Positions 29,535-55,847 of a stretch of 64,000 nucleotides of DNA are shown piece by piece (position 1 is the stretch's first letter; the number at the start of each line of letters is the position of its first letter). The position numbers were made by a program, and so were the translations under genes. Under the pieces are notes generated by a model that was given only the letters and a program-made list of their open reading frames with translations, searched no databases and was not told the DNA's origin. Source of the stretch: Isoetes taiwanensis. Its lineage: Eukaryota > Streptophyta > Lycopodiopsida > Isoetales > Isoetaceae. Location of the stretch: positions 64,001-128,000 of the forward strand of contig JAJEKV010000285.1 in NCBI GenBank assembly GCA_021234155.1. The letters run 5' to 3'.

Positions 29535-29745
29535 TGTAACGAGCCAAGAAGAGACAAAACAGTCAAGGACTAAGATGGCATTGATAAGAAGAACTTAATG
29601 CATTATGAGGATCGATGGATCCTTAAATAACAGAAGGATGAGCTAATCTTAGAAAAACAGTAAATTCAGCATAAATGGGTGCCCCCAATTTCGGCACCGA
29701 GTAGGTGCACCTCTTTTAGATGACATCACATCATATTGACTAACA
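29535..29745 (-). repeat. copia 3' LTR
   Basis: 211 bp, from TGTTAG at 29745 to TTACA at 29535. It lacks an 11-bp segment present in the 5' LTR. The left flank GCTTC matches the far flank of the other LTR. Confidence 0.9.
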
Positions 29746-29775
29746 CTCCTGCTTGCTGGAATCCAAAGAGGTGAG

Positions 29776-30015
29776 ACTCATGTGTTTGTACCTTCTCCTG
29801 CTTGAGTGGAACTGTTGGGCAGAATTCGGAGTTGAGCTCGATGGAAAGTGAATTTAGAGAGAGGCGAGGCCTTGGTGAAGATGTCAGCTGCCATATTTCT
29901 AGTACTGCAATGAGGCATTTGGATGCTTCCTTCTTGAACCTTCTCACGCAGGTAATGATACCTGACTTTTATATGTTTGGACTGATTATGAAACTTGGAA
30001 TCCTGTGCAAGAGAA
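29776..30015 (-). pseudogene. copia RNase H, C-terminal piece
   Basis: Reads FSISLAQDSKFHNQSKHIKV, RYHYLREKV and MAADIFTK, the conserved end of copia RNase H, then stops at 29776. It is separated from the preceding DNQSAI segment (41586) by element B. Confidence 0.88.
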
Positions 30016-30045
30016 ATCGAACAAAGTTTAAAATGAAACGCACTT

Positions 30046-30600
30046 CAAAAGGAATCTTTGAAAGATTCCCTAAAATTCCCTTAAAAAATGCCCTTTTCTT
30101 GGTATATTTGTGACAAGTGTGACAATTTGAATATTTTAGGCACCATTTTTGGAGGGGAATTTGAACTCAGCTTCCATTCAAAATTGTTTGGTACCATTTT
30201 TTGGCCCCCTAGTTTGGTTTGAGAAATAGTAATATTTTTAAGGACAAAACAAAATAGACATTGAAAAAAAACAGCAAGAGCTAAGAGTGCCCAAAAACGT
30301 ATTTAGTTCAAAGTTTATAAATTCACTACAAAATTATGAACAAAATTGCAAAAAATGCAACACATTTTGATATTGCCTCAATGAAGCAAATATTGTCACC
30401 TTAAAGTATGCCTCACACGCGAGATGAAGTCGAAGATGCTTGCGCTTTGCTTTATACACTTGCTCTTATTTGCTCCTCCAGCTTGCTATAGACTTCTGTA
30501 TACCGCGATGGCGACGTATGTATCCAATCTGGACTTTTTTAAACTTTGTAATTTATTTGTTCTCTGTAGTCTTTAGTTTCTTCCAAATAAATTTCAAGAT
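30046..30600. other. Element B left subterminal region
   Basis: AT-rich and without a gene. It holds GAAAGATTCC, which is echoed at the right end. Confidence 0.5.
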
Positions 30601-30836
30601 GGTATAAATTTATACCTTAATAGATAGTAATATGTGGACATAGTATGCTAGAGAGTTCGCACGGTATAAATTTATACCGCAAGAAGACTTGAGCGGTATA
30701 GATTTATACAACAAAAGAACTCGAGCGGTATAAATTTATACAGCAAAATGACTCGAGCGGTATAAATTTATACCGCAAGAGGACCCAAGCGGTATAAATT
30801 TATACCGCAAGAGTTTTCTCGGTATAAATTTATACC
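30601..30836. repeat. Seven-copy array of a 16-bp palindrome, 32-bp period
   Basis: GGTATAAATTTATACC or a near variant occurs at 30601, 30663, 30695, 30727, 30759, 30791 and 30821. Spacing is 62, 32, 32, 32, 32 and 30 bp. Units are extended by GCG...CGC and separated by AAGA(A/G)GAC-type spacers. Further copies lie at 35652, 35682 and 41065, all inside element B. Evenly phased palindromes near a transposon end suggest protein-binding sites. Confidence 0.9.
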
Positions 30837-31904
30837 AAAGATATATATATATATGTATATTATATAAATATATAATATATACAAGAAATTTAGCACGTCC
30901 TACGGAGCATGTTCCTACGTTGTAAGTTCCAATTTTAGCATATTCCTACATGTTGCTGCCGCTGCCAGATTAAGCAGTTGGTCAGTTAAGGGAAAAGATA
31001 TGGGATTGTACCTTGTAGGAAAATGGCAAAGTACATTGTCACTGTGTTTGCTCCACACTTGGGAGGTTGTAAACAACTGCTTAACTATCATTTAACTGAA
31101 ACAGTGAAAGCCCTTTAACTTAATTGAATGCAAAATTCTTCGCGTCCATGCAAGCGTCCATGCAAGTCCTGCAGGCTAAAACTTTCTTTGATAGCCTTGC
31201 AAGCAGTCTGTGACAGTCCAATTTACTAGGTTCCTTACCTAATCATTTTGCAAAATAGGCTACGCAAAGACACATTAGCACATATCACCACCATACATAA
31301 CTTCCTAAATCATACTATCCAACTATAAGAGGGGCTTGAATTATTGTAGAAGCCAATTATAAGTGTCAAAGTGCCAACACTATGACTAAACAACACAGAA
31401 ACTTATACGATTGCTTAAGTGTATGATCTAGCTACTTTTGAAGTGTTGAACTAAAAACACTAAGAAGTGTTGGAAAAACATGGAAAGGTCAGACTTAGCT
31501 CATACTCTAGAATAAAGGGCAAGTGCTCTAGTCCTCAAGAAAGATCTGTAAAAAAAAAAACGATCAAAAAAATAGGCAAATATTAAAATGACCTGTTGTT
31601 ATCTGGCTAGTAAACCATGCGAGTTCCATAGCCCGACAACCATTCAAGTTCCATTGTTGGTCCAATCCATTGTTATACAGACTACATTCTTATTATGTAG
31701 ACTGCATTGTTATTATGAATTAAATTTGATTCTATACTTGGTAAGACCAAATTTTGCATATGTCGCTCATAAATCGCAAACATAGACGAATATGCTATAG
31801 ATTATTTATCTTCTACAACAATAAAACCAGAATTGAAACCTTTTTCCCATAGGTGCCTCTTGTGTTAACTTTTTGCTCAAGACAAAATGTTAAATTATAG
31901 AGGT

Positions 31905-32592
31905 TGTATCCGAAACTAGACTTTATTTTGGCAACTGGCATAGGAGTTCCAAAAGACTGTGGTATAGTTTTTGTAACGCTAACATGGGCAAGTTGTATAC
32001 ACTATAAGGATATTGGCATAACATTTAACCATCTATGGCAGGTGCATGTTGGGAAGATTACAATATTTATGGAATTTCTATTAAGTCTGGTGCAGCTTGA
32101 CACAGCAGTAAGGCAAGTGGCCTAGAATTGCACACGTTGTAAATGTTATTCTAAAAAACCATGGACTTTTGAATATCACTCAAGGTATGTATCCCACATT
32201 TCGTCACTTCTGAGTCTTTGGGGATTTAGCCATGAATTATGCACATTTGATCTACATATTCCTTTTACACTAGTTTGGTGTCCATCATTTAGCATAAATA
32301 TGGAATGGTGACCATTTGAAAGTGTGGCACTCTAATGGCAAAGTTGGTGGCAAAATTACCTTACTGTGCATCTGTACATACAATATGCAGTTTGCTTTTG
32401 GGCCGTTATCTCTTGATCCGAAACTAGACCTTACATTGGCAAATGGCTTGAGAGTTCCATAGTGTTGTTTGAAGGTCATATTGCCATAGTTTGCCTAGCA
32501 CTAACATGAGCAAGTTGTATACACACTATAAGGATATGGGTAGAACGTTTAACCATCGATTGTTAACCATCTATGCTAGGAGCATATGGGAA
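31905..32592. repeat. Diverged ~170-bp duplication, ~505 bp apart
   Basis: Both copies share ATCCGAAACTAGAC, GCAAGTTGTATACAC, CTATAAGGATAT and TTTAACCATC. They are non-coding, inside element B. Confidence 0.7.
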
Positions 32593-32599
32593 GTTTGAT

Positions 32600-35390
32600 G
32601 TATTTGGAGAGTACATAAAGGCACGTGGCCTTAGTTTGACACATTTCAAATGTTATTCTAAAACACCTTTAGGCAAGTTATGTTCTCTTAAAAGAAAAGG
32701 GACCCACACATTGGATATGTACCTATATAGTCTTTTCTAAAAATCTTTGCAATGAAAACGCACACTTTTTTTTTTTTTTTTTTTTTTTTTGTATGCTTCG
32801 TGCCAAGTGTCTTCAAACCAAGGTACCTCTTTCATGCATTTGTTTGCCTTTGGGAAAAAGGGGCACAATTGCCTTAAGCATTTTCTAATAGGCTTTCTTT
32901 ACAAAATACACTAATTTGCCTCGGATGTTTTAGGCATTTAGCCACTATTGAACTAAAGCCTTGGGTGTGAATTTCACCAAGTTATGGAGCCAATATTATT
33001 GAGGCTATATGTGCCACAAAATTAAATTGTGGTATAATATTAGACTTTGGAATATCTCTCGAAATCGATTTGGGGCTTTTTGAAAATCGATTTTGGGCAT
33101 GACTTGGAGCCAAGTTGTCACTGTGGTAGCATACAGATGCTTCGATCTACTTGATGCATGGGTCTTCTACCTTAAGGAGAACGGAAGGAAGGAATATTAG
33201 AAATACAATACAAAGGCTGGATATTTGATGGTTAAGTTGCAACTGTGGCAAGAAAACGAAAATATGTTAAACATAAGACTTTTTAATTTTTTAAGGTCTT
33301 CTATGGAAATCGATTAGGGTAAGCAAACCCTAAACAATCCCAAAACGGCCGCCCAAGGGGCTAGGCCATATCGATGCTGTATGTCTGCTATTCACAATCC
33401 AACAAACAGGATGAAGATCGATTTTTGATGCTGTGCCATGCCTTAGAATACAGGATGATGCTGTGCCATGCCTTAGAATACAGGTCGAATCCTCCATCTC
33501 CAATCAGAATAAGGACGTATGTGCCGGATTTGCTAGAAAATAGCCGCTCATCCCAGATTAGGATGCTCATGGTCGATTTGCTCTAGCTTATAGCAGAAAA
33601 AATACAGAGTTTTTTACCTTAACCGATTGTTCCAGAATCATTAGGTTCTTGTTGCCACACAGCCGTGGCCATACAAATCCGATGCAATGCTGCCGGATTC
33701 CCATAGTTAGGCCTAAGACTGTCATGTTTAATGGCAAAGATCTGTTTCTTTGATCTTGACAGCCAGATTTAACTAATAGATTAAGTTTGAACCAGTGCTG
33801 CATTCCCTCTTCCCCAAATTTCCCTTACAGGATCTAGAGACTCAAAACCTCAAAAGATTCTGACTATCTGTGGCAAGATTATTGAATATTGTATCTGTGG
33901 GCAATCCACACACTGCAGAATTCTATAGTGGAGGCCTCCATCTGCATAGCTAAGAACCTCGGAAGACCAAGGCTGTTCAAAACAAAAAAGATAGAGATTG
34001 CAAGTATCATAAAAGGACTTTTTGAGACTAATAAATAGCATCAGCATAGATTTACCAGAGATTTCAGTGCAAGGCAGCACGCAGAGACTCCAAACTTGTA
34101 AACTTGAATTTGCCTAAAAAGGGGAACTGCAATGATGGAAGGCTTCTTTGAGACCACTCAAGAGCGTACTACAAACAAGAATGCACCTGCTTTTTGCAAG
34201 GGTCTTCTAGAACCCATAGCCGCCCAAAACCATAGGCTGCACCATACTCTGTTCTTCTAGTAGCTTCTTCCTGAAACCATAGCCTGCATCACCATAGCCT
34301 GCATCATTAAGCCCATCACTGACAATCTTTGTCCCCATACAATGCAAGTTCATGTAATTTGAAGAGAGGGCATTTAGAACAAATCACAAAACCACTGGCA
34401 GCGGAATCATTTGAATCATGCATGGCTGCAGCGAATAAGATAAATCCAGCCTGATTTGGCTAATATCAGGCCGGATTTGGGGGTTGCCAATCAAATTTGA
34501 AGACCCAGGAAGAAGAACATCGATTTTGAAACCCATCAAATAAAATTGGGTTCAAAAATCTGATTTGATGGTCTGAGACCCCATTTATGGGTTCACAGTT
34601 AAGGATTTCCAGTCTGTAGCCATCGGATCACGGTTCCGACCCTGTAGCGCAAGATTATAACCAGCACGAAGCCTCACATGATTTCATAACAGACGCTCAA
34701 CCCTCTGCATATTAAACTATTAGACTGTTGCAGACGCTTCAAAAACCGCGGAACTCAGAATACGTTGCAGAAGCTTGGAAATCGTGGCAAAACCTATCAT
34801 AAAAAAATTATAAGAAGCCCAGTAGAAATCGACAAAGCAATAGTGAAACCATGGCAAAATCATGGTAGGAAGCATATATCAGTGCAATAGCCGGCCAAGC
34901 CTAGCCTAAGGCGAATCCAAGCCTTGGTTGCACAGGCAACATAAAAACTACCAAACGAAAAAAGAATCGATGCAAAGACAAAGGGGACAAAACCACGAAT
35001 GTCCATAAAAACCACGCTCCATAAATGTATCTTTGAGCACGAAATTAAAGCCACATAGCAGAGAGTAAGTACGAAGCAAGGAGATGCAATCGATGCTGGA
35101 AACGTGCATATTTATAATTCCAAACGGCCGCTAGGAAACGCATGACCAGGCTCCAAGCCTACTACGAAAATTCTTTGACAAAATCGTTTGGCCATCAACA
35201 AAATATCCGGCAAAAGAATGAAAATATTGCACAGCATCTCTGCAACGACCGGAATCATGAGTAGAGCCGGAATTAAGAGTAGCGCCGCCATAATATGAGA
35301 TATCCAAATTTGAAAATAATATAAGCCCTCTCAAGAGACGAGACAGAACCGTCAAACGAAATTGGATTTGGGTCACCGTAATCATTAAAT
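32600..35390. other. Element B interior, no recognised gene
   Basis: AT-rich sequence with a 29-bp poly-T at about 32766 and a 30-bp tandem duplication (GATGCTGTGCCATGCC) at 33427-33485. A minus-strand open frame at 35131-35397 is weakly protein-like, but no domain is evident. Confidence 0.4.
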
Positions 35391-35406
35391 ACGGCAATTT
35401 AGAATG

Positions 35407-35570
35407 TTCTAGAATTTCTTGCCATCTTCTAGAATTTCCAAGACATTCTGGAAGCTACCATATCTCTGCCAAGAAGCTTCCGGAAGCCACCAGATCCGAC
35501 GGCCGAGATTGCAAGGGAGCAAACCGACGGCCAAGATCTGGCGGTATAGATATAAAAGAAGCTTCTAGAA
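35407..35570. promoter_or_regulatory. Heat-shock-element cluster with TATA box
   Basis: TTCTAGAA at 35407 and 35427 and TTCTGGAA at 35446 precede two perfect three-module sites at 35473-35485 (GAAGCTTCCGGAA) and 35558-35570 (GAAGCTTCTAGAA). TATAAAA lies at 35551-35557. The shared core GACGGCCGAGAT links it to the repeat at 10391-10617. The nearest candidate gene on the plus strand is unclear. Confidence 0.6.
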
Positions 35571-35651
35571 GCCACTCCTAATAATTATATATATATTCAG
35601 ATATAACATATATATTTACATATATATATCCGAAAAAAAGTGAAGTCTTGC

Positions 35652-35697
35652 GGTATAAATCTATACCGCGAGACTTCCTGCGGTATAAATTTATACC
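35652..35697. repeat. Two further GGTATAAATTTATACC palindromes
   Basis: Copies at 35652-35667 (one mismatch) and 35682-35697 are 30 bp apart, the same phasing as the 30.6-kb array. Confidence 0.85.
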
Positions 35698-35740
35698 GTT
35701 TTTTTTTTATATATACAAATATGTGAACGTATATATATTG

Positions 35741-35777
<37 letters not shown>

Positions 35778-36308
35778 CATGTATAAGATGTATATCACTA
35801 ATATATATACACGTATTAGATGTGTGTTTTGTCATCCCATGCCCATGTTCATAGAGATTCATCCCCGCCGTCCAATCACGAAATGAAAGTGTCAAGGTTG
35901 CACCAAGAAAGGGAGAGAAGGGGATGCACACCAATATCCGAGAGCGCAAGCTCCCAAAACAAAGGCAAAATGGAATTGTATTCAATGTTGTATATCAATA
36001 CAGAAGTACAATGATATAAACAAAACGGTGATACTAAGAATAGTATTAGCCGTTCAACCGCCGCCCACTAATAACAGCCGTTACTTAGTTAGGTCGGTGC
36101 TCAGTGCTGATAAGATGCTGACTCTGTTCAGTTCAGCACTTTCTCAGCACCACTGTGCTGAGTGCTGAGTCGCTGCTTCAGCACGTCTAGCAAGATGGTG
36201 GTCTCGATATCACATATATCTTGACACTCCTCCTTGATGAGAGATCGCCATCTCCATGCTCAGCCTCCTCCTCCTAAAGATAAGATCTGAATCTTGGTCA
36301 AGGTTCAC

Positions 36309-36872
36309 TTAATCAGGGTCATCTGAAAAGCTCAAAAACCAAGTTTGCATGAAGAGATCAGCTCTGTTTTCTCTGGTAGGTAAATAAACCTTTGCTTGAC
36401 CTTGATCAACTGTTCCTAGAAGTAAAGAGTCAATTGCTCCTCCTTGCTTTGGAATCATGATCATATATGACGCATATTCAACTCCTTCACAATCAAGTGA
36501 ATTAAGGTCTCCTCCTTGATCTGGAAACAAAATAGAGTTGAGTGCCATAACAGGTGCTGGAATTGTTGGAAGTGATGTAAGTGCTGGAAGTTTCTGTAAT
36601 CCGAACAGAAAAATCAGTTGATCAGGTGTTAGAACCTGAGTGCCTCCTTGTATAAACGCAGCCAAAGTATCAGAAATGAATGCCACTTGATGAAGTGTTG
36701 TTACATTGCCTGAAAATGGGGAGACGAAGGCCACATCAAGATATCCTAGCTCAATGGCTGAGGCATCTATTAATCCTTGCTTGGAAGGTGCTGGAATATC
36801 AGAAATTGGCATCCATTTATTGGGTGCTACTGCATCGTCTGATATCCAGAAAGTAGAAGGATCTAAATCCAC
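36309..36872 (-). CDS. 187-aa ORF of the gag-only copia derivative
   Basis: It starts MDLDPSTFWISDDAVAPNKW and ends WFLSFSDDPD. The middle is rich in hydrophobic and Pro residues (LTSLPTIPAPVMALNSILFP). It resembles the gag/pre-protease tail of some copia elements only in position. I recognise no motif, and there is no zinc knuckle or DSG. It lies between the gag-like region and the 3' LTR. Confidence 0.5.
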   Translation of the reverse strand: MDLDPSTFWISDDAVAPNKWMPISDIPAPSKQGLIDASAIELGYLDVAFVSPFSGNVTTLHQVAFISDTLAAFIQGGTQVLTPDQLIFLFGLQKLPALTSLPTIPAPVMALNSILFPDQGGDLNSLDCEGVEYASYMIMIPKQGGAIDSLLLGTVDQGQAKVYLPTRENRADLFMQTWFLSFSDDPD

Positions 36873-37020
36873 TAGATCATGCTTAATAGAAAGAGATAAT
36901 CTGCTACCAATGTGCTTCTCCTCCTCATCATGCTCATCTCCATTTAGGGTAGATTGAGTCTTTGAATGCCCCTATTTTGCAAAGAGAGTGGCATGACCAT
37001 CTTTACTGCATCTTGCCTCA

Positions 37021-37609
37021 TCATGATCTCCTCCTTAATAGAAGTGATTGCTTGATGGAAGCCCATATCTTTGTCTTGCATAAAAGCTCTTTGTACAAAG
37101 AATCAAATGCATTAGGTAATGACCGAGGAAGAAAAATAGTTGCATCGATTGTGAGATCGATGCTCTTCTCCAAAAGCTTCAACTGTTGGAAGGCGTGCTT
37201 CATGTGATCGAGAACTCGTCAAGACTTTCGCAGATCTCATCCCAAAGACATATCCATCACCTCGCATACAAGTGCCCAATCTTATGGGTCTTTTGGTCAT
37301 GCTTCTCAATGAGAGCATGCCACAAATCGTGGCTATTTCTTCTTTGCCGGAACTCATCAAGGATAGAGTCGACTAAGGAGAGCCCGATATATGCCATCGC
37401 CTTTATCATCTCTACCGCCAAGCATGCAAATCAGCAATATTCTTGGTATCCGGTGCAGGTTCTTGGCCATTGACAATTCCCCAAACTCCTTCATATCTGA
37501 GAATGAAAATCATTCTGCTTTTCCATTGCTGGAAACCTGTGCCATCAAAGATTTGAATCGCATGACTGCCAGGGAAGGTAATCTGGTTGTAGCTTGCATC
37601 CTTCTCCAT
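37021..37609 (-). pseudogene. copia GAG N-terminal region, frameshifted
   Basis: Reads FDGTGFQQWKSRMIFILRYEGVW (37412-37609), the usual copia GAG start. It continues in other frames through SLDEFSITMKHAFQQLKLL and AFDSLYKELLCKTK, the UBN2-type helical core. At least two frame changes break it. Confidence 0.7.
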
Positions 37610-37647
37610 TGCTGTGTTGATCTTGAATCAATCTCAGCACACCTAAT

Positions 37648-37659
37648 GCTCTGATACCA
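37648..37659 (-). other. Primer-binding site of the nested copia derivative
   Basis: The minus strand reads TGGTATCAGAGC directly next to the 5' LTR, the standard initiator-Met tRNA site of Ty1-copia. Confidence 0.9.
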
Positions 37660-38517
37660 TGTCAAGGTTGCACCAAGAAAGGGAGAGAAGGGGATGCACA
37701 CCAATATCCGAGAGCGCAAGCTCCCAAAACAAAGGCAAAATGGAATTGTATTCAATGTTGTATATCAATACAGAAGTACAATGATATAAACAAAACGGTG
37801 ATACTAAGAATAGTATTAGCCGTTCAACCGCCGCCCACTAATAACAGCCGTTACTTAGTTAGGTCGGTGCTTTCGATCGATAAGATCTTCGACTCGTTGG
37901 TTCAAAGCACTTTTCAAGACCATCGCGGTCGAAAGTGGCCGAAGTCGCCGCTTCAAAGACGTCTAGCAAGATGGTGGTCTCGATATCACATATATCTTGA
38001 CAGAAAGGCCAGGATAATGCCACCTCATTGAGGTGCATGGATGGCCATGATGGGCATGCATGGGCATGCATGGGGGCATGCACCACATCCCCAAACCGTT
38101 GGATCAAAAGGGGAGAATAAATCCTAGCCCTTGATTTTTGTGAAGAAGGTGCAAGGAAGGTGCCAAAAAAAAAAAGTTGGTGCAGCAGATCTCAACCGTT
38201 AGATTAAAAGGTGAGCATAAATCCTAGCCATTAACTTTTTAATATTAAATTGATTTTTTTCTTTTAAAGGAGGTGAGGTGGCACCCTCATTAATAAAAAG
38301 GCATCCTCATTAATAAAAAAGGTAGTGAGGTGGCAAAGTATTTATGAATGGACTTTTTAGGAAGCTTCCTTCTGTTTAATCGTCTTCGAAGGCCCGTAGC
38401 TTGCAGTAGAGGGGTCGGATGAAGATGGGGCCTACGCCATTGGATTTCTCTCGTCGAGACCTTTCTAAGGAGTGGTGCTTTGGCACTATTTTGTCGCATT
38501 TGGAGCCAGCGTGATCG

Positions 38518-38640
38518 ATGTGTGATTTTGTCATCCCATGGGTCATATTCATAGAGATTGATCCTAGCCGTCAAATGACAAAATCAAGGGTTGTTATAAT
38601 TCCACCTCATGTGATGCATGGATGGGCACGATGTGCACAT
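38518..38640. repeat. Empty paralogue of the copia-derivative target
   Basis: Shares TTTTGTCATCCCATG, CATAGAGATT and, farther on, a CCACCTCAT plus GATGCATGG(A)TGG stretch with the two flanks of 35890-38002, and lacks the element. It independently supports the insertion boundaries. Confidence 0.7.
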
Positions 38641-38913
38641 GCATACATATGCACATACATGCATGGGCCATGCACCATGCACATGGGCCGTTAGATGGGG
38701 GAAGGTGAAATCTGGATCGTTCAAACTATAAGAGAGGAAGGTGACAAGAAGTTCCTATGCATGTGGTTAGGTGGCATACATGTGCATGCAAGCATTTATT
38801 GTAATCATGAGGTGTTAGTTGAGGTGGCATGTGCATTTATTTGCCACCATATCTTATCTATATTTAATATATAGATTTTGAGGTGGCATTGTAATTAATT
38901 TATGCATTTTTTG

Positions 38914-39170
38914 CCTTTTAATATAGAATATAAAAATCTTAATGTGAAACGTGGCAAGCCATATCTTGCTTTCTTTTCAAGTTTTCTTTCAAACTTTAAC
39001 CATGAGGACGAGCTTGATGTAACTACATGGCAACATTTTTTGCCTTTTATTATAGAAAAACCTTAATGTGGAACGTGGCAAAGCTATATTTTGCTTTCTT
39101 TTCATGTTTTCTTTCGATCTTTAACCATGAGGACGAGCTTGATGTCATGTGAACTACGTGGCAACCTATT
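38914..39170. repeat. ~128-bp tandem duplication
   Basis: Units share ACCATGAGGACGAGCTTGAT, CTTAATGTG(A/G)AACGTGGCA and TTGCTTTCTTTTCA. Confidence 0.8.
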
Positions 39171-39299
39171 TGGTTTTCCTTCCAACACCTTTTTTTTTTC
39201 TAAACTAAGGGCGCCTAGAATCTTTGGAAAATTATTCCTCTCCTTCTTCTCTCTGAAGTTCTAGCTTTCAAGACTCCATGGCGTCCGCTAAAACTCTCA

Positions 39300-39661
39300 A
39301 GACTAGGGGAATCTTCATAGAGTCTAAGCGAATCTAAGGAACCTTGGGAGAATCTTTGGGAACATAGGGGAATCTTATGAGAATCCTGGGGTATTCTTAA
39401 GGAACCTTAGGGAATCTAAGGGGATATAGGGGAATCTTAAGGGAATCTAGGGATTCTTAAACAAATTCATGTGAATCCCTGTAGAATAATGTGGAATCTT
39501 TGTAGGATCTTAGGAAATCCAAGAGAAACTTTGTAGAATTTTAGGGAATCTACGAGAAATGCACAGGGATCTAGGGATGTTTTTAGAATATTGGACAATC
39601 TTAATAGAATGTTGGCAAAACTTGGGTTCGACTTCATACACTCCCTCATGGTACAAATACT

Positions 39662-39750
<89 letters not shown>
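39300..39750. repeat. Degenerate GGAATCT repeats and (TA)n microsatellite
   Basis: About 300 bp of imperfect GGGAATCTTAAG-type units lead to a perfect (TA)n at 39664-39748. Open frames through the (TA)n are artefacts. Confidence 0.8.
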
Positions 39751-39753
<3 letters not shown>

Positions 39754-41106: not shown

Positions 41107-41585
41107 CTGCATGATTTCGTGGATGTATTATCATTTGTAATACCATATGATGCAAAAACAATAATTTTTCATTCAAGCAGTTTGTTCAACTGTCTCCCAA
41201 TGTCTTTTAAGGTCAATTAGGATGTTTAGCCAAAATGGTTGTGAAATAACAAATTTTTTGTCTTCTATAACAGCCAATATAAACGTTCTAAGGGATAAGA
41301 TACAAAAGCGTCTAATTTTTTCATATGAGTTTGCCCCATAATAAATCTTTGGCTTTCGTAGTGGTCCTTTTCCCCTCTAAAATGAGATATTTTTCTCTGT
41401 TGTTCTTCTCCTTAATGTTAAGTCTTCCTAAAATGTCTGTTTTCATGAGCAGTTTTATAAATCTTTAGACACAAGATAGTAAAAGAGTCCTTTTTAGGGG
41501 TATTTTAGAATTTTGTAAATTTTTAGAAGGAATCTTTCAAACGCACTTCTTAAATAAGTGCGTTTCATTTTAAACCTTGTTATCG

Positions 41586-44197: not shown

Positions 44198-44199
44198 TG

Positions 44200-45340: not shown

Positions 45341-45341
45341 T

Positions 45342-45912
45342 TCAAGCTTCATCTGTAAGAAAAAGTGAAGAAAATTAGTTTAGAATACATAAAAGAAAGC
45401 AAAAATTTAATGCATGCATGCTACTTACTCTGTAGAAAATTTTGGAGTTCCAAAAAAACTTCATGTTCTTCTTCGTCTTCTACCTCTTCTTCTTCTTCTT
45501 CGGTCTGGTCTTCGCTCGATTCGTTATCAGAATCTTGGGAATCAAATTGATCATCAGAAGAAGCTTCATCAGAGGAATCGAAATTAGAGGAGGATTCCAC
45601 CTCTTCTGAAAGCTCCGAAAGATCTTCAGAGCTTTCAGAAGAGGTGGAATGAGACTCAGAGCTCTCAGGCTCAGGGCTCTCGGGTACTGGGCTCTCAGGT
45701 TCGGGCTCCAGCAAATGGTAATTTGGCCAAGATCCTATTTCATAACTGGCCATCACCTGTGCCAAAGGAATTGAAAGCAGTTTCCGGCGCTTAGGGGAGG
45801 GAGAGCGAGAGCGAGAGGGAGAGGGAGAGGCAGAGCTGGAGGGAGAGCGGCAGCGGCAGCGCTTCGACATTCTGTTGGAAGGAATTGGACGATGCTTCTC
45901 CTTCACGACCAT
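45342..45912 (-). CDS. Element A protein with SR-like and acidic Ser/Glu-rich tracts
   Basis: The ATG at 45912 is in good context (ggctATGGtcg). The first exon runs to 45429 (donor GTAAGT) and a short last exon (45342-45352, acceptor TTACAG) gives the stop, about 165 aa. The N-terminal part is basic and repetitive (MSKRCRCRSPSSSASPSPSR), then comes LLSIPLAQVMASYEIGSWPN, and the C-terminal half is Pro/Glu then Ser/Asp/Glu-rich, ending in a Glu run. Low complexity prevents a family call. Such proteins occur as nuclear or activator-like factors. A plus-strand poly-Ser frame opposite is a shadow. Confidence 0.45.
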
Positions 45913-46099
45913 AGCCTATAAAGGCTGGCGTGAAATTAATTTCGTAGGCTACGATTTTAGGATTTCGTACCATTATCATCTTTATTCCTAAAGATTTAGT
46001 AGGAAACTAATAATAACCTCGAAAGGACCATTATTTTATTTTCTAAAAAACATTAAAAAAAAAATATATATATATATATATCTATCCTGAATTGGCCAT

Positions 46100-46700
46100 T
46101 CATGAATAGCTCCAACATGCCACCTACGATGCACCACATGATTCACCAAGGTCATGTAAAGGCTCAAGCATGCCAAGGTGGCTCAAATATGCCACCTAGG
46201 CTCCAACATGCCAAGGTGGCTCAAACATGCCACGTATGCTCCAACATGCCACCTACGATGCACCACATGATTCACCACATGATTCACCAAATGCACCTCA
46301 TGATTCACCACATGCACCATTTGCATCACCAAACATGCTGGTCAATGAAAGTCAAACATGTAACAAAGGTCATGTAAAGGCTCAAGCATGCCAAGGTGGC
46401 TCAAATATGCCACCTAGGCTCCAACATGCCAAGGTGGCTCAAACATGCCACGTAAGCTCCAACATGCCACCCACGATGCACCACATGATTCACCACATGA
46501 TTCACCAAATGCACCTCATGATTCACCACATGCACCATCGCATCACCAAACATGTTGGTCAATGAAAGTCAAACATGCCACGTAAGCTCCAACATGCCAC
46601 CTACGATTCACCACATGATTCACCACATGGTTCACCAAATGCACCACATGATTCACCACATGCAGCATTTGCATCACCACATCTATCACGACATGTAACA
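46100..46700. repeat. CACCACATG-rich tandem repeats, ~219-bp higher-order unit
   Basis: Units such as ATTCACCACATG, CCAACATGCCACC and CCAAGGTGGCTCAAA recur. GGTCATGTAAAGGCTCAAGC appears at 46150 and 46369 (period 219). CACCAC is the complement of GTGGTG in the 43-kb array. Confidence 0.85.
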
Positions 46701-47021
46701 CCACATTGTCATGAATCTTTGAATACATCAATTTCTTCTGGAGATTTGAACTCCACCAGAGTGTTGCTCTGGTCAGCCGAAAAAGTCTATTGTATACAAT
46801 AGTATACAACAATGTACATTAGAGTGTCAATGAAAGAATAGGTTACAAGAATAACCTCTTTGGTTAAAATAATACAAACATGTGATTACAAGTAAAGATC
46901 TATTGATCGTCAACCTCGACTTCATTACTACAAAGAAGCGTAGCTTCACAACATCAATCATCATTTGCAGCGTGTCCAACGGCTCGCAACTAGAAATTGG
47001 TACACCCCCGCAACAAACATA

Positions 47022-47585
47022 TCAGGCCTCACATTGGATGAGTAATACCTTCAAAATTCTGAACTCACCTTGCATTGGGATAGTATGTCCAAGTCTCGCG
47101 ACATCGCAGCCACAACTTTCTTTACGAAGACACATATAGCGAGGGACTACACGACCAAGAATCGGTGAGTGGGGGAACTTGTAATTTTCTTGTGGCGCAG
47201 CTTTTATGGTGCTTGGGAATTTTGTGTTTGCATCCTCAACAAAACTCATAGCAGGCTCGAGCCCTTGTACATTTCTAGGTTTGTCAAAATGGTACACACC
47301 GGGCCGACATTTAACCGGGTGACCTCCAAGACCTACAATGACATACACTTTGTCGGTCTTTAGCGATAACATCTTTGGCGAGAATGGTACATTCCGAAAT
47401 TGCAAGTTGAGGGTGCAACAGTTTGTCCTTTGAAGCAAGCTCGTTCGACAGTAATGTGTAAATGAGCGGATCCATGAAATGGTACCTCTGTTCCATGTCA
47501 TGCTTGATGCAGAATTGGTGCATACACCTGCCAAAGTCCAAGGTCCGGTAAAACAAGGCGATTTAAGAAACAACGAAGACTTCAA
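47022..47585 (-). pseudogene. Element A minus-strand protein piece, frameshifted
   Basis: One frame (47556-47340) reads HQFCIKHDMEQRYHFMDPLI, ELASKDKLLHPQLA and ISECTILAKDVIAKDRQ. A frame change near 47340 continues as KVYVIVGLGGHPVKCRPGVY, SFVEDANTKFPSTIKAA and CLRKESCGCDVARLGHTIPM. Composition is clearly protein-like. I recognise no family. It may be an exon of the same transcription unit as the HAD-like segment upstream. Confidence 0.4.
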
Positions 47586-47924
47586 ATCTGAGTTGTTTAT
47601 ATTAAATTACTAACCTCATGAAGAAATGGACTATCCTCACTTCGAACCAATCCCTACTTTTCTCCAATATTCTCGATTGCCTCTTGATCAAGCACAAGAG
47701 GCTCTACATCCTTTAAACACTTCAAGTGGCAAGTGTTCTGGTCGGATGTGCGCTCTTAACACTGCAGTCCTCGTGCTGGTGGTGTAAGTTTACATTCAGC
47801 AAATGGAAGATCATTGAAAACCTTGAGGAACATTGAAATAGCCAAGAAATGAACAATTGAAGTAAAACTTTGTTTATATTAAAAAGTCAAGAGAGGTTAC
47901 ATCATATACACAATAATACTATTT

Positions 47925-48600
47925 CTAGGCTTTAGTTCTATGTTTTTTCATCATATTAATACAAATTTGACTCTCAGTGTCAAACATATTCAGCATTTTG
48001 TTGCTTTCGACATAACTTTGCACATTCCCTGCCTTCAGCAACCCCTGAAGCCAAACCTTTAGATCATTCATGAGGAAATTGCCATCTACTCTGTCAGGGC
48101 TCCAGCTGTTTGGACAGATCATGGTGTTTGGCGCATTGAGGTACCCTTTGTATGAGAAGCACGTTCTCTTTTGTGAAACCTGGAAATTCGACGTAGACCT
48201 TTTTCAGGTGCTTCAAAAAAATTGGCTTTTTACTATTAAATAAATTTGTGTTCGTACAGTGATCCTGACTCCATATGAACTTGAATTTGTCCTTGTGTTT
48301 CATCAATGCTCCCTTAACTATGACTCTCAAGTTTTGAGCCTGCAGGCTGGACCAAAGTGCTATATGAAAATTCTGACTGCACCAATCTATGAACTCGGCC
48401 CAGCCTGGTCTAGTTACTACCCACTTGGTTCTGTTAAGTGTGATCAACTTAACATCATCTTCTTTGGCAGTGGGTATGGACTCACTCTTGTCATAGCTTC
48501 TACCCAGAACTCCATTGTAGTAAAAAACAAGCAGGATTGGGCTTAACCTTGTAGTCTTCTGCATGGACAGAGTTGGTGCGGGGGCTGGAAACTTCGCCAA
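47925..48600 (-). pseudogene. FCP1/NLI-interacting-factor HAD-like domain protein
   Basis: The frame from the ATG at 48600 reads LSPILLVFYYNGVLG (motif I position), then VVTRPGWAEFIDWCSQNFHI, ALWSS (motif II) and KFKFIWSQDHCT, then FLKHLKKVYVEFPGFTKENV. A one-base shift near 48160 continues as SYKGYLNAPNTMICPNSW and DLKVWLQGLLKAGNVQSYVE, the normal C-terminus of plant FCP1/NLI-type phosphatase domains. The catalytic Asp of the usual DxDxT/DxNG motif is replaced (FYYNG), so phosphatase activity is unlikely even if the frame were intact. It is carried inside element A. Its role there is unknown. Confidence 0.72.
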
Positions 48601-48633
48601 AGCATTTCTTGGTGCGGGGCTAGAAACTTCGCT

Positions 48634-49288
48634 TCAAGCATCTATTCGATGCGGGGATGGAAACTTCGCTTCGAGAATGTCTTGGAGGTGTCTTTTGCTT
48701 GGAATTACGCTCTTGCTTTTTCTCCGAGACACTTCCACCTGCAAAATTTTTAATGATTCGGTAACTATATGGGTCAAATTAAAAAGAAGCGAGGGCACAA
48801 AAGGTTGGAAGTTACCTTGTGACTTACATTCCGAAACGATTTGTTGGATCATAACCCGATGCATCTGCTGATTTGGTGATTGGTGTGGAGCATGACTTAA
48901 TGCATCCGTTGATCTGGCAGATTCTTGTCGGTTGGAGCACCCATCGGAGCTTGACTTGATGCACCCTCTTGATTTGTTGACATCTACCTGATTTGTCCGA
49001 GGCTTCACGTAACGATGCATCTTCTGATTTGCCCGAGTTTCTATCTGTGTCTAATGCTTTCGAAGGGGTGGGAGTGTCTTGTCCCCCTAACTGACCACAT
49101 TGTACATCTATATCTACAAAGTAGGGATGAAGAAGTAAGCTACATATCCCAATTGCATCAAACAAGACTTGGTTACCTTTGAGGGTAGAAAATAATTCCC
49201 TTTTTGGTGTGCTAGATGGACTCACATAGTCATTGCCACCAGTATGAACAGTTAGACCTGAATTAGTAAACGGCACCATGCTCTGCAA
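48634..49288 (-). pseudogene. Element A minus-strand low-complexity piece
   Basis: The open frame starts MQSMVPFTNSGLTVHTGGND, then STLKGNQVLFDAIGICSLLL. An overlapping frame (48634-49020) continues with DALSHAPHQSPNQQMH and QQIVSECKSQGNFQP. DNA-level repeats of a CAGATGCATC/GATGCA type are evident. It is probably a disordered linker region of the same gene as the HAD-like part. No domain is seen. Confidence 0.35.
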
Positions 49289-49372
49289 ACCTGGAATTGA
49301 ATCACAATTGATTGTAACTATGCTTTGGTTTTTTTAACTAAGTTCCAGACTTTTTTACTCTCTTTACGATGT

Positions 49373-49600
49373 TCCTGTTTTTATATATCTAAAGTGTCCC
49401 CTAAAATGAGCGAGCGATCTCATCCCAGGGGGCACTTTAGATACACAAAACAGGAGAAGCAAAAGAGACTAAGCCAGCCAGGATCTTGTTTTATGTCGGG
49501 CTTACTCCCTTTTCGAGTTTCCTGCTTGAGGTATCTAATTCGCCACCTGAGTGAGCGATGTCATCCTAGGGGGCAAATTAGATACAATAAACAGAAAACG
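49373..49600. repeat. Two related inverted repeats
   Basis: Hairpin 1 (about 49375-49452) has arms CCTGTTTT...TATCTAAAGTG and CACTTTAGATA...AAAACAGG. Hairpin 2 (about 49530-49585) has arms GTATCTAATT and AATTAGATAC. They share the loop GAGCGATNTCATCC and the flank GAGACTAAGCCAG. The changes in one arm are matched in the other. Confidence 0.75.
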
Positions 49601-49638
49601 AAGGAGACTAAGCCAGGCTTACTCTCTTTTCGAGCTAC

Positions 49639-50453
49639 CTATAAGTGCTCACCTGTAAGTGCCTCAGTAGCTTGAAGTTGCTTTTGATCCTCCCTACTCA
49701 CACCTAAGGCTTGTACCCATGCTGTAGAAAATTCATGACAGCAATTCTCAATGCAACAGTGATTACAAATCCTGCAAAGTGAACGCAAATTTGTCAATGA
49801 GAATACAATTATACTAAGCACTTCAGGAATTTTGTTATGAAGTACCTCAAGAAATTTGGCGGACATGGAAGATGGTATTGGTGGTGCATTGAGCAATCAA
49901 AGTTGGTAGTGGTTTCCCCATCCTTTGGAGGATCTTGCCACAGAATGGACAGCCACTACCATAATCTTCACCTTATCAAGGTGCGGAAGTAGTGGATCCA
50001 AGACAAATAAAGGAAGGCGGTCCTTGCAAGACGAAACCTCTCTAACCTTGGTTCGGCACTTTCAATCTTTGTTGTGTCTGCTTCCCTGGCTGACAGCAGA
50101 TTAAGCTCCTCGATTTTTGTCTGCTCAAGTTCTGGTAATAGTTCCTTCAGCTCAGCCTCTGTATCTTGGCATATAGCCCGAATACCGTCTGCACGACTTG
50201 GTTTATCCTTAATCATTCCTTCCCATTTTTTTAAATCTTTATTCATCTTTCTCGATGCGGAACTCAAGTTCTTTGAACCTTCATTTGTAGCACTGCGGCA
50301 GTTTTGATCACAAGTTTGCAACCTTACCTTACACTGAATCACTTCTGATCTTGTAGAGTTGATCCATTCTCCCAGTGTCCTGTTGAATTCATCTGGAAAG
50401 TAATCCAAGGTTAGTACCACATGACACAACATGCACCACTTTACACACCACAA
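49639..50453 (-). CDS. Element A coiled-coil and Cys-rich exons
   Basis: The exon at about 49968-50400 reads DEFNRTLGEWINSTRSEVI, CKVRLQTCDQNCRSATNEG, KNLSSASRKMNKDLKKWEGM and ELEQTKIEELNLLSAREAD, a helical coiled-coil stretch. A following segment reads GSGCPFCGKILQRMGKPLPT with IAQC, a possible zinc-binding site. The 49639-49800 exon reads ICNHCCIENCCHEFSTAWVQ, Cys/His-rich and B-box-like. Splice joins are plausible but not proven. It could be the N-terminal side of the same transcription unit as the HAD-like protein. Confidence 0.4.
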
Positions 50454-50459
50454 ATTCCA

Positions 50460-50820
50460 TCATGACAAACTTTGCACCACAAATGGCGTCATATTCACCA
50501 CATGTGGTGTGGCATGTGGCACCAAACTGGTGCCACATGCCACACCACATATGGCACCACAATGCACCCAAGGCACCACATATGGCAATCCATTACTTCG
50601 CACCACAAATGGCGTCAAAGACACCACATGTGGTGCAAAATGTGGATCCATAGTGGTGCCACATTAGACACCACATGTGGCACCACAATGCACAGAAGGC
50701 ACCACATCCGGCAGGCATCCACCACCCCATATGTGGCAGATAGCGTGGTGCAATATTTAGCGCAGCAGTTGGCACCACATATGGCAGACAATCCACCATT
50801 CACAAGTATCACCATATCTA
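50460..50820. repeat. CACCACATGTGGTG palindromes and CACCACA repeats
   Basis: The perfect 14-bp palindrome CACCACATGTGGTG lies at 50496-50509 and 50622-50635, among many GGCACCACA and CACCACAAATGGCGTC units. Both orientations of the GTGGTG core occur. Confidence 0.85.
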
Positions 50821-51038
50821 ACATCACATATGACACTAAGTATAGAAACATATGGAAGCCAATTCACTATTCAGATAAGGTACCACGTTTGGTACTATAT
50901 GTGACACTACATATGCTACAAACTACATTATTAACATATAAGCGGCACCATATGACTGTCTCCGTAACACATTTGGAGCTACATACTCTCGTGAACTGAA
51001 ATTATCCACCACAACTCGAAACTAGCGGCACAAATTTC

Positions 51039-51614
51039 CTACACATAACTTACAAAGACACCCAAATGAAGAAGTAAGTGGTGTACACGATTGTTCAAGC
51101 TTGCTAGACCTTCTTTGGAAAATAACTTGGTTCCAATATTAAATTGCATCATATGGTGGTTCCGGAAGAAGAGGGTTGAAAAGTACCTATTTTTTTCAGT
51201 TGATTTTCCCGAGATTCTTCTTCTGACTTGAGGAGGCTTGAATTGTGGCCTAGTCATTTCAAGAGAGGAAGCATCATCTGTGGCGAGGTTGCTCTGCTTT
51301 CTCACTATTTGAAATGATTGCATGCTTCCTCTTACGTTGGGGACGGAGGCTTGAGACCCTTTTTTCTTTAACTGTTGCGGAAACTCAACCAATTTATTTC
51401 TTTTCCTTTTGTGTGAAGGTAAACATAGCATGACCATAGTGCGTGAGGCCATGCCTCCCCGTGCACACTTCACACTTTGTGATTTTTTGTAAAGGCACAT
51501 ATATTCATTATACCTCTCCTTGCTCATATTCTTCAACTTTTGCATGATGAAACAAAACAATATTCTAAACAACAGAGAATCATGGGCATCCCCCGAATCT
51601 AGAATGCAACCCAC
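51039..51614 (-). CDS. Element A minus-strand upstream exon, basic protein
   Basis: The open frame reads SGDAHDSLLFRILFCFIMQK, LKNMSKERYNEYMCLYKK, SVKCARGGMASRTMVMLCLP, SHKRKRNKLVEFPQQLKKKG and PQVRRRISGKSTEKN. It is strongly basic and may contain a nuclear-localisation signal (KRKR). An acceptor-like ACAG precedes it at about 51615. No domain is recognised. It is probably an early exon of the element's minus-strand gene. Confidence 0.4.
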   Translation of the reverse strand: MGCILDSGDAHDSLLFRILFCFIMQKLKNMSKERYNEYMCLYKKSQSVKCARGGMASRTMVMLCLPSHKRKRNKLVEFPQQLKKKGSQASVPNVRGSMQSFQIVRKQSNLATDDASSLEMTRPQFKPPQVRRRISGKSTEKNRYFSTLFFRNHHMMQFNIGTKLFSKEGLASLNNRVHHLLLHLGVFVSYV

Positions 51615-52062
51615 TGTAAGTGGATTTTCCTAATACTTTCGGGTCCCCAAACAGACTTCGATTTCTTCTTGTGTGGCGTAATGCTTTTCTTGCACTGTAC
51701 ATTTCCTTGTAGGTGTATCCCGTGGCATTCAAGTTCGGTATGATCAGAGCCATTTAAGTGATCGATCTTCTTGCCGAAATCGAAATGGTCTTGCCGGATT
51801 AAGGGAGCGTGATCGAGTTTTTGAGGGAAAATGAAAATTCAGAATCAGAAATGGTCTTGCCGGATTAAGGGAGCGTGATCAGAGTTTTTGAGGGAAAATG
51901 ATCGTGTACGTTGCTGAATAAGCCTGAATAAGACTGAAAGGACAAAATTTTGAATAAGTAATCATGTGTATTTTTGAAAAAATAACTCCCTCTCCCACTA
52001 CAAATTCGGTAGTTCCCACCACACTTAGCACCCAAAAATGTGGTGCTAAAATGCACGTTTTT
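51615..52062. other. Element A right subterminal region
   Basis: No gene. A direct repeat of about 60 bp (AAATGGTCTTGCCGGATTAA) occurs at about 51783 and 51848. GTGGTG motifs lie near the right TIR. Confidence 0.6.
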
Positions 52063-52087
52063 GTTCCACTACAACATGCTTTCACCC

Positions 52088-54169
52088 ATTGTTGAGGAAG
52101 CGGCTGAGCAAACTGACTGGGAAACCAATGTCAGGTCTGGTAGAGATCATTAGGTAGTTTAGGCAGCCCAAGACACTGCGATAGAGAATGTTGGCCATTT
52201 GTTGACACTCTTCCACAGTGGGAGAATATGGTTGAAGGTGAAGACCTGGTTCCATGGGAGTAGAAGCTCCATCACAATCCTGCATGGCAAACCTGTGGAG
52301 AACGTCCATGGCATATTTCTCTTGGTCAAGCCACAAGAGGCGTTTAGAGCGGTCCCTGGTGATGTGCAGACCCAAACAGCTGCGGATCTCATGAAGATCG
52401 TGCATGGAGAAAGCTTGTGCTAGCCGATCTTTGAATGCACGGAGTGCAGGCAGGGAGTTGCTGGCAATGACGAGGTCGTCAATATATAAGGCAAGCAGGA
52501 TGAAGAATCCAGGTGTGCGAAGAGCATAAAGATTTGTATCTGCGTCTCCACTTTGAAAACCGAGAGCCAAGAGAAAAGAGTGCATTTTGGAATACCATGC
52601 CCGAGGGGCCTGTCGGAGACCATAGAGTGCTTTATGTAGCCTGCAAACCAGATGCTCAGATCCTGTGGCAATGTAGCCTGCAGGTTGCTGAAGATACACT
52701 TCTTCCTTCAAATCCCCATATAGGAAGGCTGCTTGCACGTCCATCTGATGGACCTCGAGATCTTGGACAGCTGCAATGGCCAATAGAATGCGGATGGAGG
52801 CCATTTTGACCATTGGAGAGAAAGTCTCCTGGAAATCTTGCCCTGGGATTTGAGAATATCCACGTGCCACAAGGCGAGCCTTGTATTTATCTAGTGTGCC
52901 ATCAGACCTGATCTTTACCTTGTAGAGCCATTTGGATCCAACCATGCGTCTGCCTGGTGGAAGTTCACACAAAGTCCATACCTGATTTTTAGACAGGGCG
53001 TGCATTTCTGCGTCCATGGCTTGACGCCAGAGGTGAGCATTTGGATCCTGACATGCCTGATCATAGGTGGCAGGGACTAGAGGGTCCAAAGTGTTCATGG
53101 CTGCCTGATGATAAGCCAAGAGTTTGGCCGTGGGCTTCCATGGGCGGCCAGATCGCCGTGGCGGAGCTTGCACAGGACATGAGTGGACTGGACCATCATG
53201 TGTATTTGTGGGAGAATCAAGGAAATCAAGACATGTTGGAGGATCAGCAGGTTCAAAATCATTAGGATTTTGGAGAGGAAAGGAATTATCAGAGGTGAGT
53301 TGGGGCAGAAAAATGAGATCTTCTTTGCGAGGAGGAGGATTAAGCAAGGTACTGCCAAGTTGGTCTTCAATGAATTCAACATCTCGGCTGAAGAAATAGG
53401 AGTTTGTGGCAGGGTCATAAAGCTTGTATCCTTTTTTGAGGGTGGTGTAGCCAAGAAAAATGGTTGGGCGGCTGCGCGGATTGAAAGAACTTTGTGCTGG
53501 ATGCTTGAGGATGAGTGCATAAGCAATGCATCCAAAGACACGCAGGTGAGAAAGATCAGGCTTTTGGGAGGTCCACTTTTGGAAAGGTGTGAGGGAAGAG
53601 TGGCGTGAAACAAGGCGATTTCGCAGGTATGCAGCAGTGCTGGTGGCTTCAGCCCAAAAATATTTGGAAAGTTTTGCATGAATGAGCAGGCATCTTGCTT
53701 GATCTTTGAGAGTGCGGTTCATCCGTTCGGCCAGCCCATTTTGCTCTGAATTCCCTGCTACAGTGGTCCTGTGTTCGATGCCATGCTCCTTGCAGAAGTT
53801 GGAGAAGGCATTTGAGGTGTACTCTCCTCCGTTATCTGTCATCAAACTTTTAGGATAAAAGCCAAGTTGAGTACGTACCCAAGCAATATGATCTTTGAAG
53901 GCAGAGAAGACGTCACTTTTTGCCTTGAGAAAATAGAGGACAATGAATCTGGAATGGTCATCTATGAATATAAGAAAATATTGGGCTTTGCCTGGAGTGA
54001 GGGGATGTGGCCCGGACAGATCTGAATGAATTCGATCGCCAGGAGCTTCTGCTCTATGATTGCTTGAGGGAAAAGACATCTTATGCTGCTTTCCAAGAAT
54101 GCAAATGCTGCAAGTGGCATCAAGTGAGAGCTTGGGAATCCCACTAACTGCATCAGCAGAAAGAGTGTG
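52088..54169 (-). CDS. pol: copia integrase and reverse transcriptase
   Basis: Open from the codon after the TGA at 54170 to the element A insertion point. Near the start it reads LDATCSICILGKQHK (pre-integrase CxxC). The integrase core has HSDLSGPHPLTPGK, MTDNGGEYTS and SEQNGLAERMNRTL, giving the D, D and E residues. The RT region begins WTLCELPPGRRMVGSKWLYK and carries ARLVARGYSQ, MDVQAAFLYGDLKEEVYLQQ and the catalytic LYIDDLVIAS. It ends STRPDIGFPVSLLSRFLNN, where RNase H should follow but element A interrupts. Apart from the nested insertions and one upstream TGA the frame is open, consistent with a young element. Confidence 0.93.
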
Positions 54170-55591
54170 TCAGATGCTATCGACCCCTGCATGCCCCAAT
54201 CGGTGATGCCAGATGGTGTCTTGTGCTGCTTGAGTGTGAAAAGCAGTGCCTTCAATGGCTGCAAATAATTTATAGAGTCTGCCGTGGCGAGTGCCGTATG
54301 CCACAGTCTTCTGATAGGAATCCATGATGGTTGCCTTTCTGTTTGCAAAGAGCAATGTATAACCAAGGTCCTCTAGTTGTCCCACGCATATGAGATTGTG
54401 ATCAAGACCGGGAACTAGGAAGACATCTGACAGGAACAAAACCTGATCTTTCGAGAGGGTGATCTTGACAGTGCCAATTTGGGATGCTTGAAGAACCCTT
54501 CCATTGCTAGAAGTGATCAGATGCTTGTGTTGCAAATTGCGCAGGTGAAGGAAATGCTGAGATTCTCCAGTCATGTGGTTTGAGGCTGCTGAATCAAGCC
54601 ACCATATAGAGCTGCTCCTGCTAACCCCGCTTACAGTCATGAAAGCGTGACTCCTTGGAAACTCTTCTTCAATGGAGGCCGTGAAATTTGCAGTGGCTGA
54701 ATGAGATTTGGGGTCAGGCTGAGCCAAAGATGGAGCAACGGTAGTGGGGATCCGATTCTTGGCAGTGTCTGCTTCCAGCTTCCAGCATTTTTCTCTAAGA
54801 TGCCCTTTGCGTTTGCAATAATCACAACGAGGTCTCTTAGAGTCCCCGGATTTGTTCTCAGGCTTGGGCTTTCCTCTTGTGAATAATGCTATTTGACCAT
54901 CAGTACCTTGCTGCTGTAGCAGCCTGGATTCTTCTTGAAGAACCCTGGCACTCACTTCTTCCCAATTTAAGGAACTTGATTGATTTGATAGCACCACAAC
55001 CAAATTTCCATATGCAGGTGTTAGGCTGGAGAGTAAAGCCAAACAGTTTCTGACCTCAGAGTAAGATGAGCATTTGTCGCAGAGCTTGATGGGCCCTGAT
55101 TCCTCCAGTTGATCCATGAGGTTACGCATTTTGGAAATATGAGTGCTCATAGATTCCCCATCCACAAATCTGGTGGTGTAGAGACGTTGTTGAAGCATCA
55201 CTTGGGCAGCAACAGACTTTTCCTCGCACATTCGAAGAAGCTTGCTCCAACATTCGTGAGCAGAACTGGAGATTTTGAGACGGTGTAGAAAAGTGGGATG
55301 AATGCTAGAGATAAGGACGGAATGGGCCCTTGAATCTTTTGACGACCACTTCCTTAAAGCATCCGCTTCATTAGGGCGCTTAGATGTGCCGTTCACGACT
55401 TCCCATAAACCTACAGCTATGAAGTACGTGGAAATTTGGTATTTCCACATATAAAATTTTTTCCCTTTGAATCGTTCAATCCCATATTTGTCTAATCCCT
55501 TGGTAGGATCAACAAGCTCAGGTGAATCAGGAGATTGAGAGGCTGGGGCAATAACAGAAGACGTGGCTGAGCTGGAGTCCATCTCTTGCAA
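54170..55591 (-). CDS. gag: copia GAG and protease
   Basis: The ATG at 55591 starts MQEMDSSSATSSVIAPASQS. The UBN2-type GAG core (about 35-250) has YGIERFKGKKFYMWKYQIST, SAHECWSKLL and STHISKMRNLMDQLEE. The CCHC zinc knuckle is CDYCKRKGHLREKC. The aspartic protease is WWLDSAASNHMTG (DSA where most copias have DSG). The GAG_pre-integrase motif is TIWHHRLGHAGVDSI, followed directly by TGA at 54170. The same frame stays open beyond into integrase, so this TGA is the only point mutation that splits the polyprotein. Confidence 0.93.
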   Translation of the reverse strand: MQEMDSSSATSSVIAPASQSPDSPELVDPTKGLDKYGIERFKGKKFYMWKYQISTYFIAVGLWEVVNGTSKRPNEADALRKWSSKDSRAHSVLISSIHPTFLHRLKISSSAHECWSKLLRMCEEKSVAAQVMLQQRLYTTRFVDGESMSTHISKMRNLMDQLEESGPIKLCDKCSSYSEVRNCLALLSSLTPAYGNLVVVLSNQSSSLNWEEVSARVLQEESRLLQQQGTDGQIALFTRGKPKPENKSGDSKRPRCDYCKRKGHLREKCWKLEADTAKNRIPTTVAPSLAQPDPKSHSATANFTASIEEEFPRSHAFMTVSGVSRSSSIWWLDSAASNHMTGESQHFLHLRNLQHKHLITSSNGRVLQASQIGTVKITLSKDQVLFLSDVFLVPGLDHNLICVGQLEDLGYTLLFANRKATIMDSYQKTVAYGTRHGRLYKLFAAIEGTAFHTQAAQDTIWHHRLGHAGVDSI

Positions 55592-55614
55592 AATGTTTGT
55601 CTAATGAAAAACCT

Positions 55615-55626
55615 GCTCTGATACCA
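55615..55626 (-). other. copia primer-binding site
   Basis: The minus strand reads TGGTATCAGAGC immediately after the 5' LTR, complementary to initiator Met tRNA. It confirms element orientation and the LTR boundary. Confidence 0.93.
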
Positions 55627-55847
55627 TGTAACGAGCCAAGAAGAGACAAAACAGTCAAGGACGTAATAGCAGCTAAGATGGCATTGATCAGAAGAACTTA
55701 ATGCATTATGAGGATCGATGGATCCTTAAATAACAAAAGGATGAGCTAATCTTAGAAAACAGTAAATTCAGCATAAATGGGTGCCCCCAATTTCGGCACC
55801 GAGTAGGTGCACCTCTTTTAGATGACAGCACATCATATTGACTAACA
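55627..55847 (-). repeat. copia 5' LTR
   Basis: 221 bp, TGTTAG at 55847 to TTACA at 55627. Nearly identical to 29535-29745. The right flank GCTTC is the target duplication. Confidence 0.93.

Follow-up and report, generated by a model that had tools for sequence, protein, structure and literature searches.

Two transposons with 4-bp target duplications, nested in a young copia retrotransposon of Isoetes taiwanensis

A stretch of 64,000 nucleotides from the lycophyte Isoetes taiwanensis (assembly GCA_021234155.1, contig JAJEKV010000285.1, positions 64,001 to 128,000 of the forward strand; hereafter the window) contains a copia retrotransposon that is interrupted twice. This locus raises the question of what the two inserts, called here E1 and E2, are and which enzymes moved them. 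Our analysis indicates that they very probably represent two distinct cut-and-paste families, both duplicating 4 bp of target DNA, of which the window copies would be non-autonomous, E2 by deletion of its core and E1 as a member of a 2.2-kb subfamily; E2 is most likely Sola-like. The locus is composed as follows (window positions, strand given where one is assigned):

29530-29534 and 55848-55852, 5-bp target duplication GCTTC flanking copia
29535..55847, minus strand, host copia retrotransposon with two interruptions; long terminal repeats (LTRs) at 29535-29745 and 55627-55847
30016..30019, left copy of the E1 target duplication ATCG
30020..41581, E1, a non-autonomous terminal inverted repeat (TIR) transposon made of a 2.2-kb core and extra internal sequence
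41582..41585, right copy of the E1 target duplication ATCG
41956..41959, left copy of the E2 target duplication ATTG
41960..52087, E2, an internally deleted, non-autonomous TIR transposon
52088..52091, right copy of the E2 target duplication ATTG

The copia element interrupted by E1 and E2 is young; its LTRs have 207 of 210 aligned bases in common, with one 11-bp and one 1-bp gap in addition. Subtraction of both inserts, together with one copy of each duplication, left 4,615 bp, and recomputation returned the same break and resume points and the same restored length as the initial annotation had given. E1 measures 11,562 bp and its TIRs agree at 25 of 26 bases, and the TIRs of E2 (10,128 bp) agree at all 26. 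When the 60-base flanks of the inserts were joined, the copia frame was open with one copy of the duplication and broken with two. Furthermore, two other copia copies (C1094 and C1101) are uninterrupted at both sites, where each has ATCG and ATTG just once. These data indicate that E1 and E2 are real insertions, later than copia, and bear out the earlier claim that the boundaries are internally proven and the 4-bp duplications true. No match between E1 and E2 appeared among the up to 160 longest matches listed in a self-comparison of the window.

The genome (1.66 Gb, 1110 contigs) was searched with both terminus patterns, allowing 3 mismatches. The E1 terminus was found at 2248 places (1119 + 1129 matches) and the E2 terminus at 838 (426 + 412), with no match to either reversed pattern. 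For E1, 20 of the 23 pairs lying within 15 kb among 100 listed ends (of 2248) were examined together with the window, the pairs C109, C112 and C434 being left out of the count; all 21 carried an exact 4-bp duplication, as did two more pairs delimiting copies of 2.23 and 2.27 kb (TCAT and CTCT). For E2, the 25 convergent neighbours at most 57 kb apart among about 100 listed exact ends (of 838) were taken with the window, leaving out a pair 60.5 kb apart on C23, and 24 of these 26 pairs were exact at 4 bp; the exceptions were C230, with 3 bp, and C674, with no duplication. None of the examined E1 and E2 pairs extended the duplication to 5 bp, and deliberately mismatched pairing of ends gave 4-bp agreement in only 2 of 420 cases for E1 and 0 of 650 for E2.

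The preference for ATYG that the two window sites had suggested was, however, refuted: of the 45 further exact duplications (43 + 2), none reads ATYG or its complement, and only the window sites fit. The target 4-mers were varied at the E1 and E2 pairs, with no TTAA among them. Of the 48 bases at the two central target positions of E2, 38 were A or T, against a flank fraction of 0.595 (one-sided P 0.003, the positions having been chosen post hoc); for E1 the count was 24 of 42, which is nothing notable.

Ten E2 pairs 9-11 kb apart were compared as full-length copies. Seven are collinear with the window E2, at about 88-95% identity over the main pieces, and three (C33, C357 and C590) share the E2 termini and have a different middle, which encodes a protein in broken frames. 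The window E2 derives from this family of about 10 kb by internal deletion and has the following internal features:

42245..42560, plus strand, broken 5′ reading frame, ahead of where the transposase core would lie (compare oriented positions 240-770 of C357)
43006..43461, plus strand, TGTGGTG repeat array with a 58-bp unit; more copies lie close to either end and around 50445-50760
43461..43478, plus strand, deletion junction; C590 and C357 have here a further 2.7-3.3 kb, which include the transposase core
48094..48633, minus strand, degenerate passenger frame with a NIF phosphatase domain (PF03031)

The motif TGTGGTG occurs 50 times in E2 versus 5 times in the remaining 54 kb of the window. 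NIF-related sequence was found in eight of eleven E2 copies, all eight of the window type (window included), and covers most of the 179-residue window frame. In five of these eight it is broken and only about 35-52% identical, and in C499 the frame is open over 278 residues. Of the copies that carry the transposase, C33 and C590 align with just the first 51 residues of the window frame, and C357 with none. At the position usually held by the nucleophile aspartate of NIF phosphatases, the three copies read (window, C499 and C501) have a tyrosine. Comparison of the frame with the protein collection gave no match.

The core lost from E2 carries a conserved D-D-D in the three copies that share the E2 termini. 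A stop-to-stop open frame of 536 residues lies in C1064, in DNA that shares 88% identity with C33 along 3 kb, and relatives of the protein were found in Adiantum, Taxus, Klebsormidium, Calypogeia, a beetle and many metagenomes; none was confirmed in viral contigs. The alignment (A2) comprised 50 of the 94 E2-type matches, and the tree 26 rows. Against Pfam, the E2-type frame L115 matched no family up to E 10, the relative P0020 reached DUF6597 with E 2.4e-4, short of the family cut-off, and other relatives gave weaker sub-threshold matches only. Sequence searches of the PDB returned no related chain, merely two unrelated ones at E 0.12 and 0.58. The predicted fold of a relative resembles retroviral integrases, Mos1 and other transposases, and the model points to a transposase with three catalytic aspartates (DDD) in an RNase H-like core. 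Ten E2-type transposase rows from G000, at 44-46% identity, are free of internal stops and perhaps represent a separate, younger family.

As for E1, the initial annotation rightly saw two nested TIR elements, but the 11.5 kb of E1 do not form one simple element, and its large size is secondary. Two complete copies, of 2.23 and 2.27 kb, align to it in only four blocks, given here with the LTR sequences that lie between them:

30020..30881, core block 1, with the left TIR and six of eight TATAAATTTATA palindromes
35586..35792, core block 2, with TA-rich edges and approximate boundaries
35890..38002, minus strand, small LTR element inside E1; LTRs at 35890-36226 and 37660-38002, duplication GAAAG
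39670..39829, core block 3, left edge approximate
39830..40476, probable solo LTR (TG...CA) between blocks 3 and 4, duplication TTTGC
40477..41581, core block 4, the right end with its TIR

E1 is a 2.2-kb non-autonomous element that carries about 9.3 kb of extra interior. On the right, 982 bp of E1 match 39 other scored copies at 95-98% identity; on the left, 860 bp also match 39, at 94-99%. The 2.2-kb copy L133 provides the empty site of the solo LTR, which inserted into the 2.2-kb unit; the remaining extra pieces probably did so as well, although their edges lie in TA-rich DNA, so that duplications are unreadable. A probe from the interior (33900-34900) found one full-length relative at 94% and partial matches, 40 of 83 candidates having been scored. 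All 8 copies of the palindrome TATAAATTTATA in the window belong to E1, and another E1-ended element, C74, has 12. The palindrome CGGTATAAATTTATACCG, or its core, is repeated at 30600-30837, at 35650-35698 and at about 41063, and also abounds in an element with E1 ends whose interior differs. At 30020-30081, the window E1 lacks about 19 bp that other copies hold between two AACGCACTT repeats; despite this gap near its left end, it inserted later than the young copia.

A candidate enzyme for E1 came from C74, an element of 8,357 bp with E1 ends and the duplication TAGT, which has only these ends and the palindrome motif in common with the window E1. It matches DUF7869 (PF25273, E 2e-15), a placeholder family with no named function. 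The same stretch is present in C113, an E1-ended pair with the duplication GAAA, and in both elements DUF7869 lies about 1.25 kb from the right end. Ten further copies were sampled (10 places out of 41 rows): the exact E1 terminus stood at the predicted place in nine, with 7 mismatches in the tenth, whereas seven control stretches showed 9-12 mismatches. In this genome DUF7869 gave 150 scored matches from 9902 first-look candidates, often with open frames, and no match was found in 14 control genomes. A full-text literature search for the name DUF7869 returned no paper. Its tie to a TIR transposon with 4-bp duplications is the newest part of this work, and E1 is probably moved by the DUF7869 protein.

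Several known systems share traits with these elements. CACTA (En/Spm) transposons of plants are large, bear arrays of subterminal repeats and have internally deleted derivatives; E1 and E2 are also large and have subterminal repeats, and E2 is internally deleted, but CACTA ends and a 3-bp duplication are absent and membership was rejected. PIF/Harbinger, with its 3-bp duplication, is likewise excluded. piggyBac and Sola3 target TTAA and were rejected on the varied target 4-mers. Searches of the literature, which were general and not by family sequence or name, gave no description that we recognised of the E1 or E2 families.

That 4-bp duplications are unusual, as initially stated, holds for the families named there but not for the Sola superfamily. 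According to published reports, Sola elements have 4-bp duplications, a DDD enzyme and variable TIRs, and are known from moss (PMC10741241); they measure 2-9 kb, some exceeding 15 kb (PMC10741241, PMC6786969). The literature also lists Sola1 from Physcomitrella and Capsicum (PMC9033089), SOLA elements in the ferns Azolla and Salvinia (PMC6786969) and Sola2 with 4-bp duplications (PMC3627910). E2 looks Sola-type because it combines the 4-bp duplication (24/26), 26-bp TIRs (the criterion being at least 11 bp) and a predicted DDD RNase H-like core; E1 resembles Sola in its 4-bp duplication (21/21 and 2/2 further pairs). The terminal sequences here are GGGTGAAAGC and AACAARGTTT. Judged by its features, E2 is most likely Sola-like. 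The kind of element to which E2 probably belongs is already known, and the link to DUF7869 is new.

The putative catalytic residues of the two enzymes are similarly spaced. In DUF7869 the distances are 7 (D2-K), 29 (K-H) and 6 (H-D3) in all four frames, and 80 (D1-D2) in the three measurable ones; the E2-type values are 81-95 (D1-D2), 7 (D2-K), 28-29 (K-H, longer in 3 of 45 measured rows) and 6 (H-D3). We read this as a common catalytic plan, homology being unproven, and profile comparison of the enzymes found no similarity, with an E1 profile of only 4 sequences. Tentatively, an as yet unrecognised plant TIR group of very high abundance, with 4-bp duplications, may use DUF7869 as its transposase domain, and this domain would have a D-x(79-94)-D-x6-K-x(27-28)-H-x5-D core in common with the E2 enzyme; E1 and E2 would then be deep branches of one superfamily at very high copy number here; we hold this wider proposal to be possible rather than probable. 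A related reading places both elements outside Sola, as deep branches of an unrecognised superfamily with 4-bp duplications and a D-D-K-H-D core. The matching D2-K, K-H and H-D3 spacings and the close D1-D2 values would fit, as would the absence of a Pfam family for L115 and the placeholder status of DUF7869, which no paper names. We consider it unlikely, for size, TIRs, 4-bp duplication and DDD enzyme agree with Sola as described in PMC10741241, SOLA is reported from ferns (PMC6786969), and the profiles do not join E1 and E2.

It is rather improbable, too, that DUF7869 is a passenger of E1-ended elements mobilised by another protein. The catalysis and fold of DUF7869 are putative and the E1 and E2 proteins unrelated by profile, but the domain occupies the same place in two complete elements with different duplications, has the exact terminus nearby in nine of the ten further copies, is abundant and often open, and spaces its acidic residues like the E2 enzyme. 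Ginger transposons, with a Gypsy-type integrase, also make 4-bp duplications, and the E2-type model resembles retroviral integrases; this identity is nevertheless very improbable, as the fold list also includes Mos1 and other transposases, L115 has no Pfam integrase match, and the termini, GGG and AAC, differ from the TGT ends of Ginger. The two aberrant E2 pairs, C230 and C674, could be cited for a misassembly, for inverted repeats arisen by chance or for duplications that are really of 3 bp. Hundreds of terminus matches against none reversed and exact 4 bp in 45 of 47 pairs already contradict this explanation, and the two empty sites in other copia copies leave it no reasonable basis; its probability is negligible.

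For the two cut-and-paste families that we favour, a DDD transposase supplied by related copies would bind the TIRs, perhaps together with the subterminal repeat arrays as putative binding sites. The E2-type enzyme would act on E2, and the DUF7869 protein probably on E1, in both cases in trans. The excised element would be joined to a target whose two strands are cut 4 nt apart, and gap filling would produce the 4-bp duplication.

Elsewhere in the window, a candidate TIR pair TTTTCGAGGGAAAA (13/14) with a flanking 9-bp repeat CCCGAAGGG at 15878-19625 is possibly another transposon. An open frame of 494 residues lies at 12407-13891; by eye, we take it to resemble an N-acetylglucosaminyltransferase. 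The frames at 15959-16726 and 59547-60095 resemble, also by eye, the 3′ coding sequence of a long interspersed nuclear element.

Since both elements jumped after the copia insertion, both systems were recently active. The annotation of plant transposons is largely built on superfamilies with 2-, 3-, 8- and 9-bp duplications, and two abundant, recently mobile families here use 4 bp. If our reading is true, many 'hypothetical' DUF7869 and E2-type plant proteins would be transposases, and copies overlooked by annotation could be found through their termini and duplication length.
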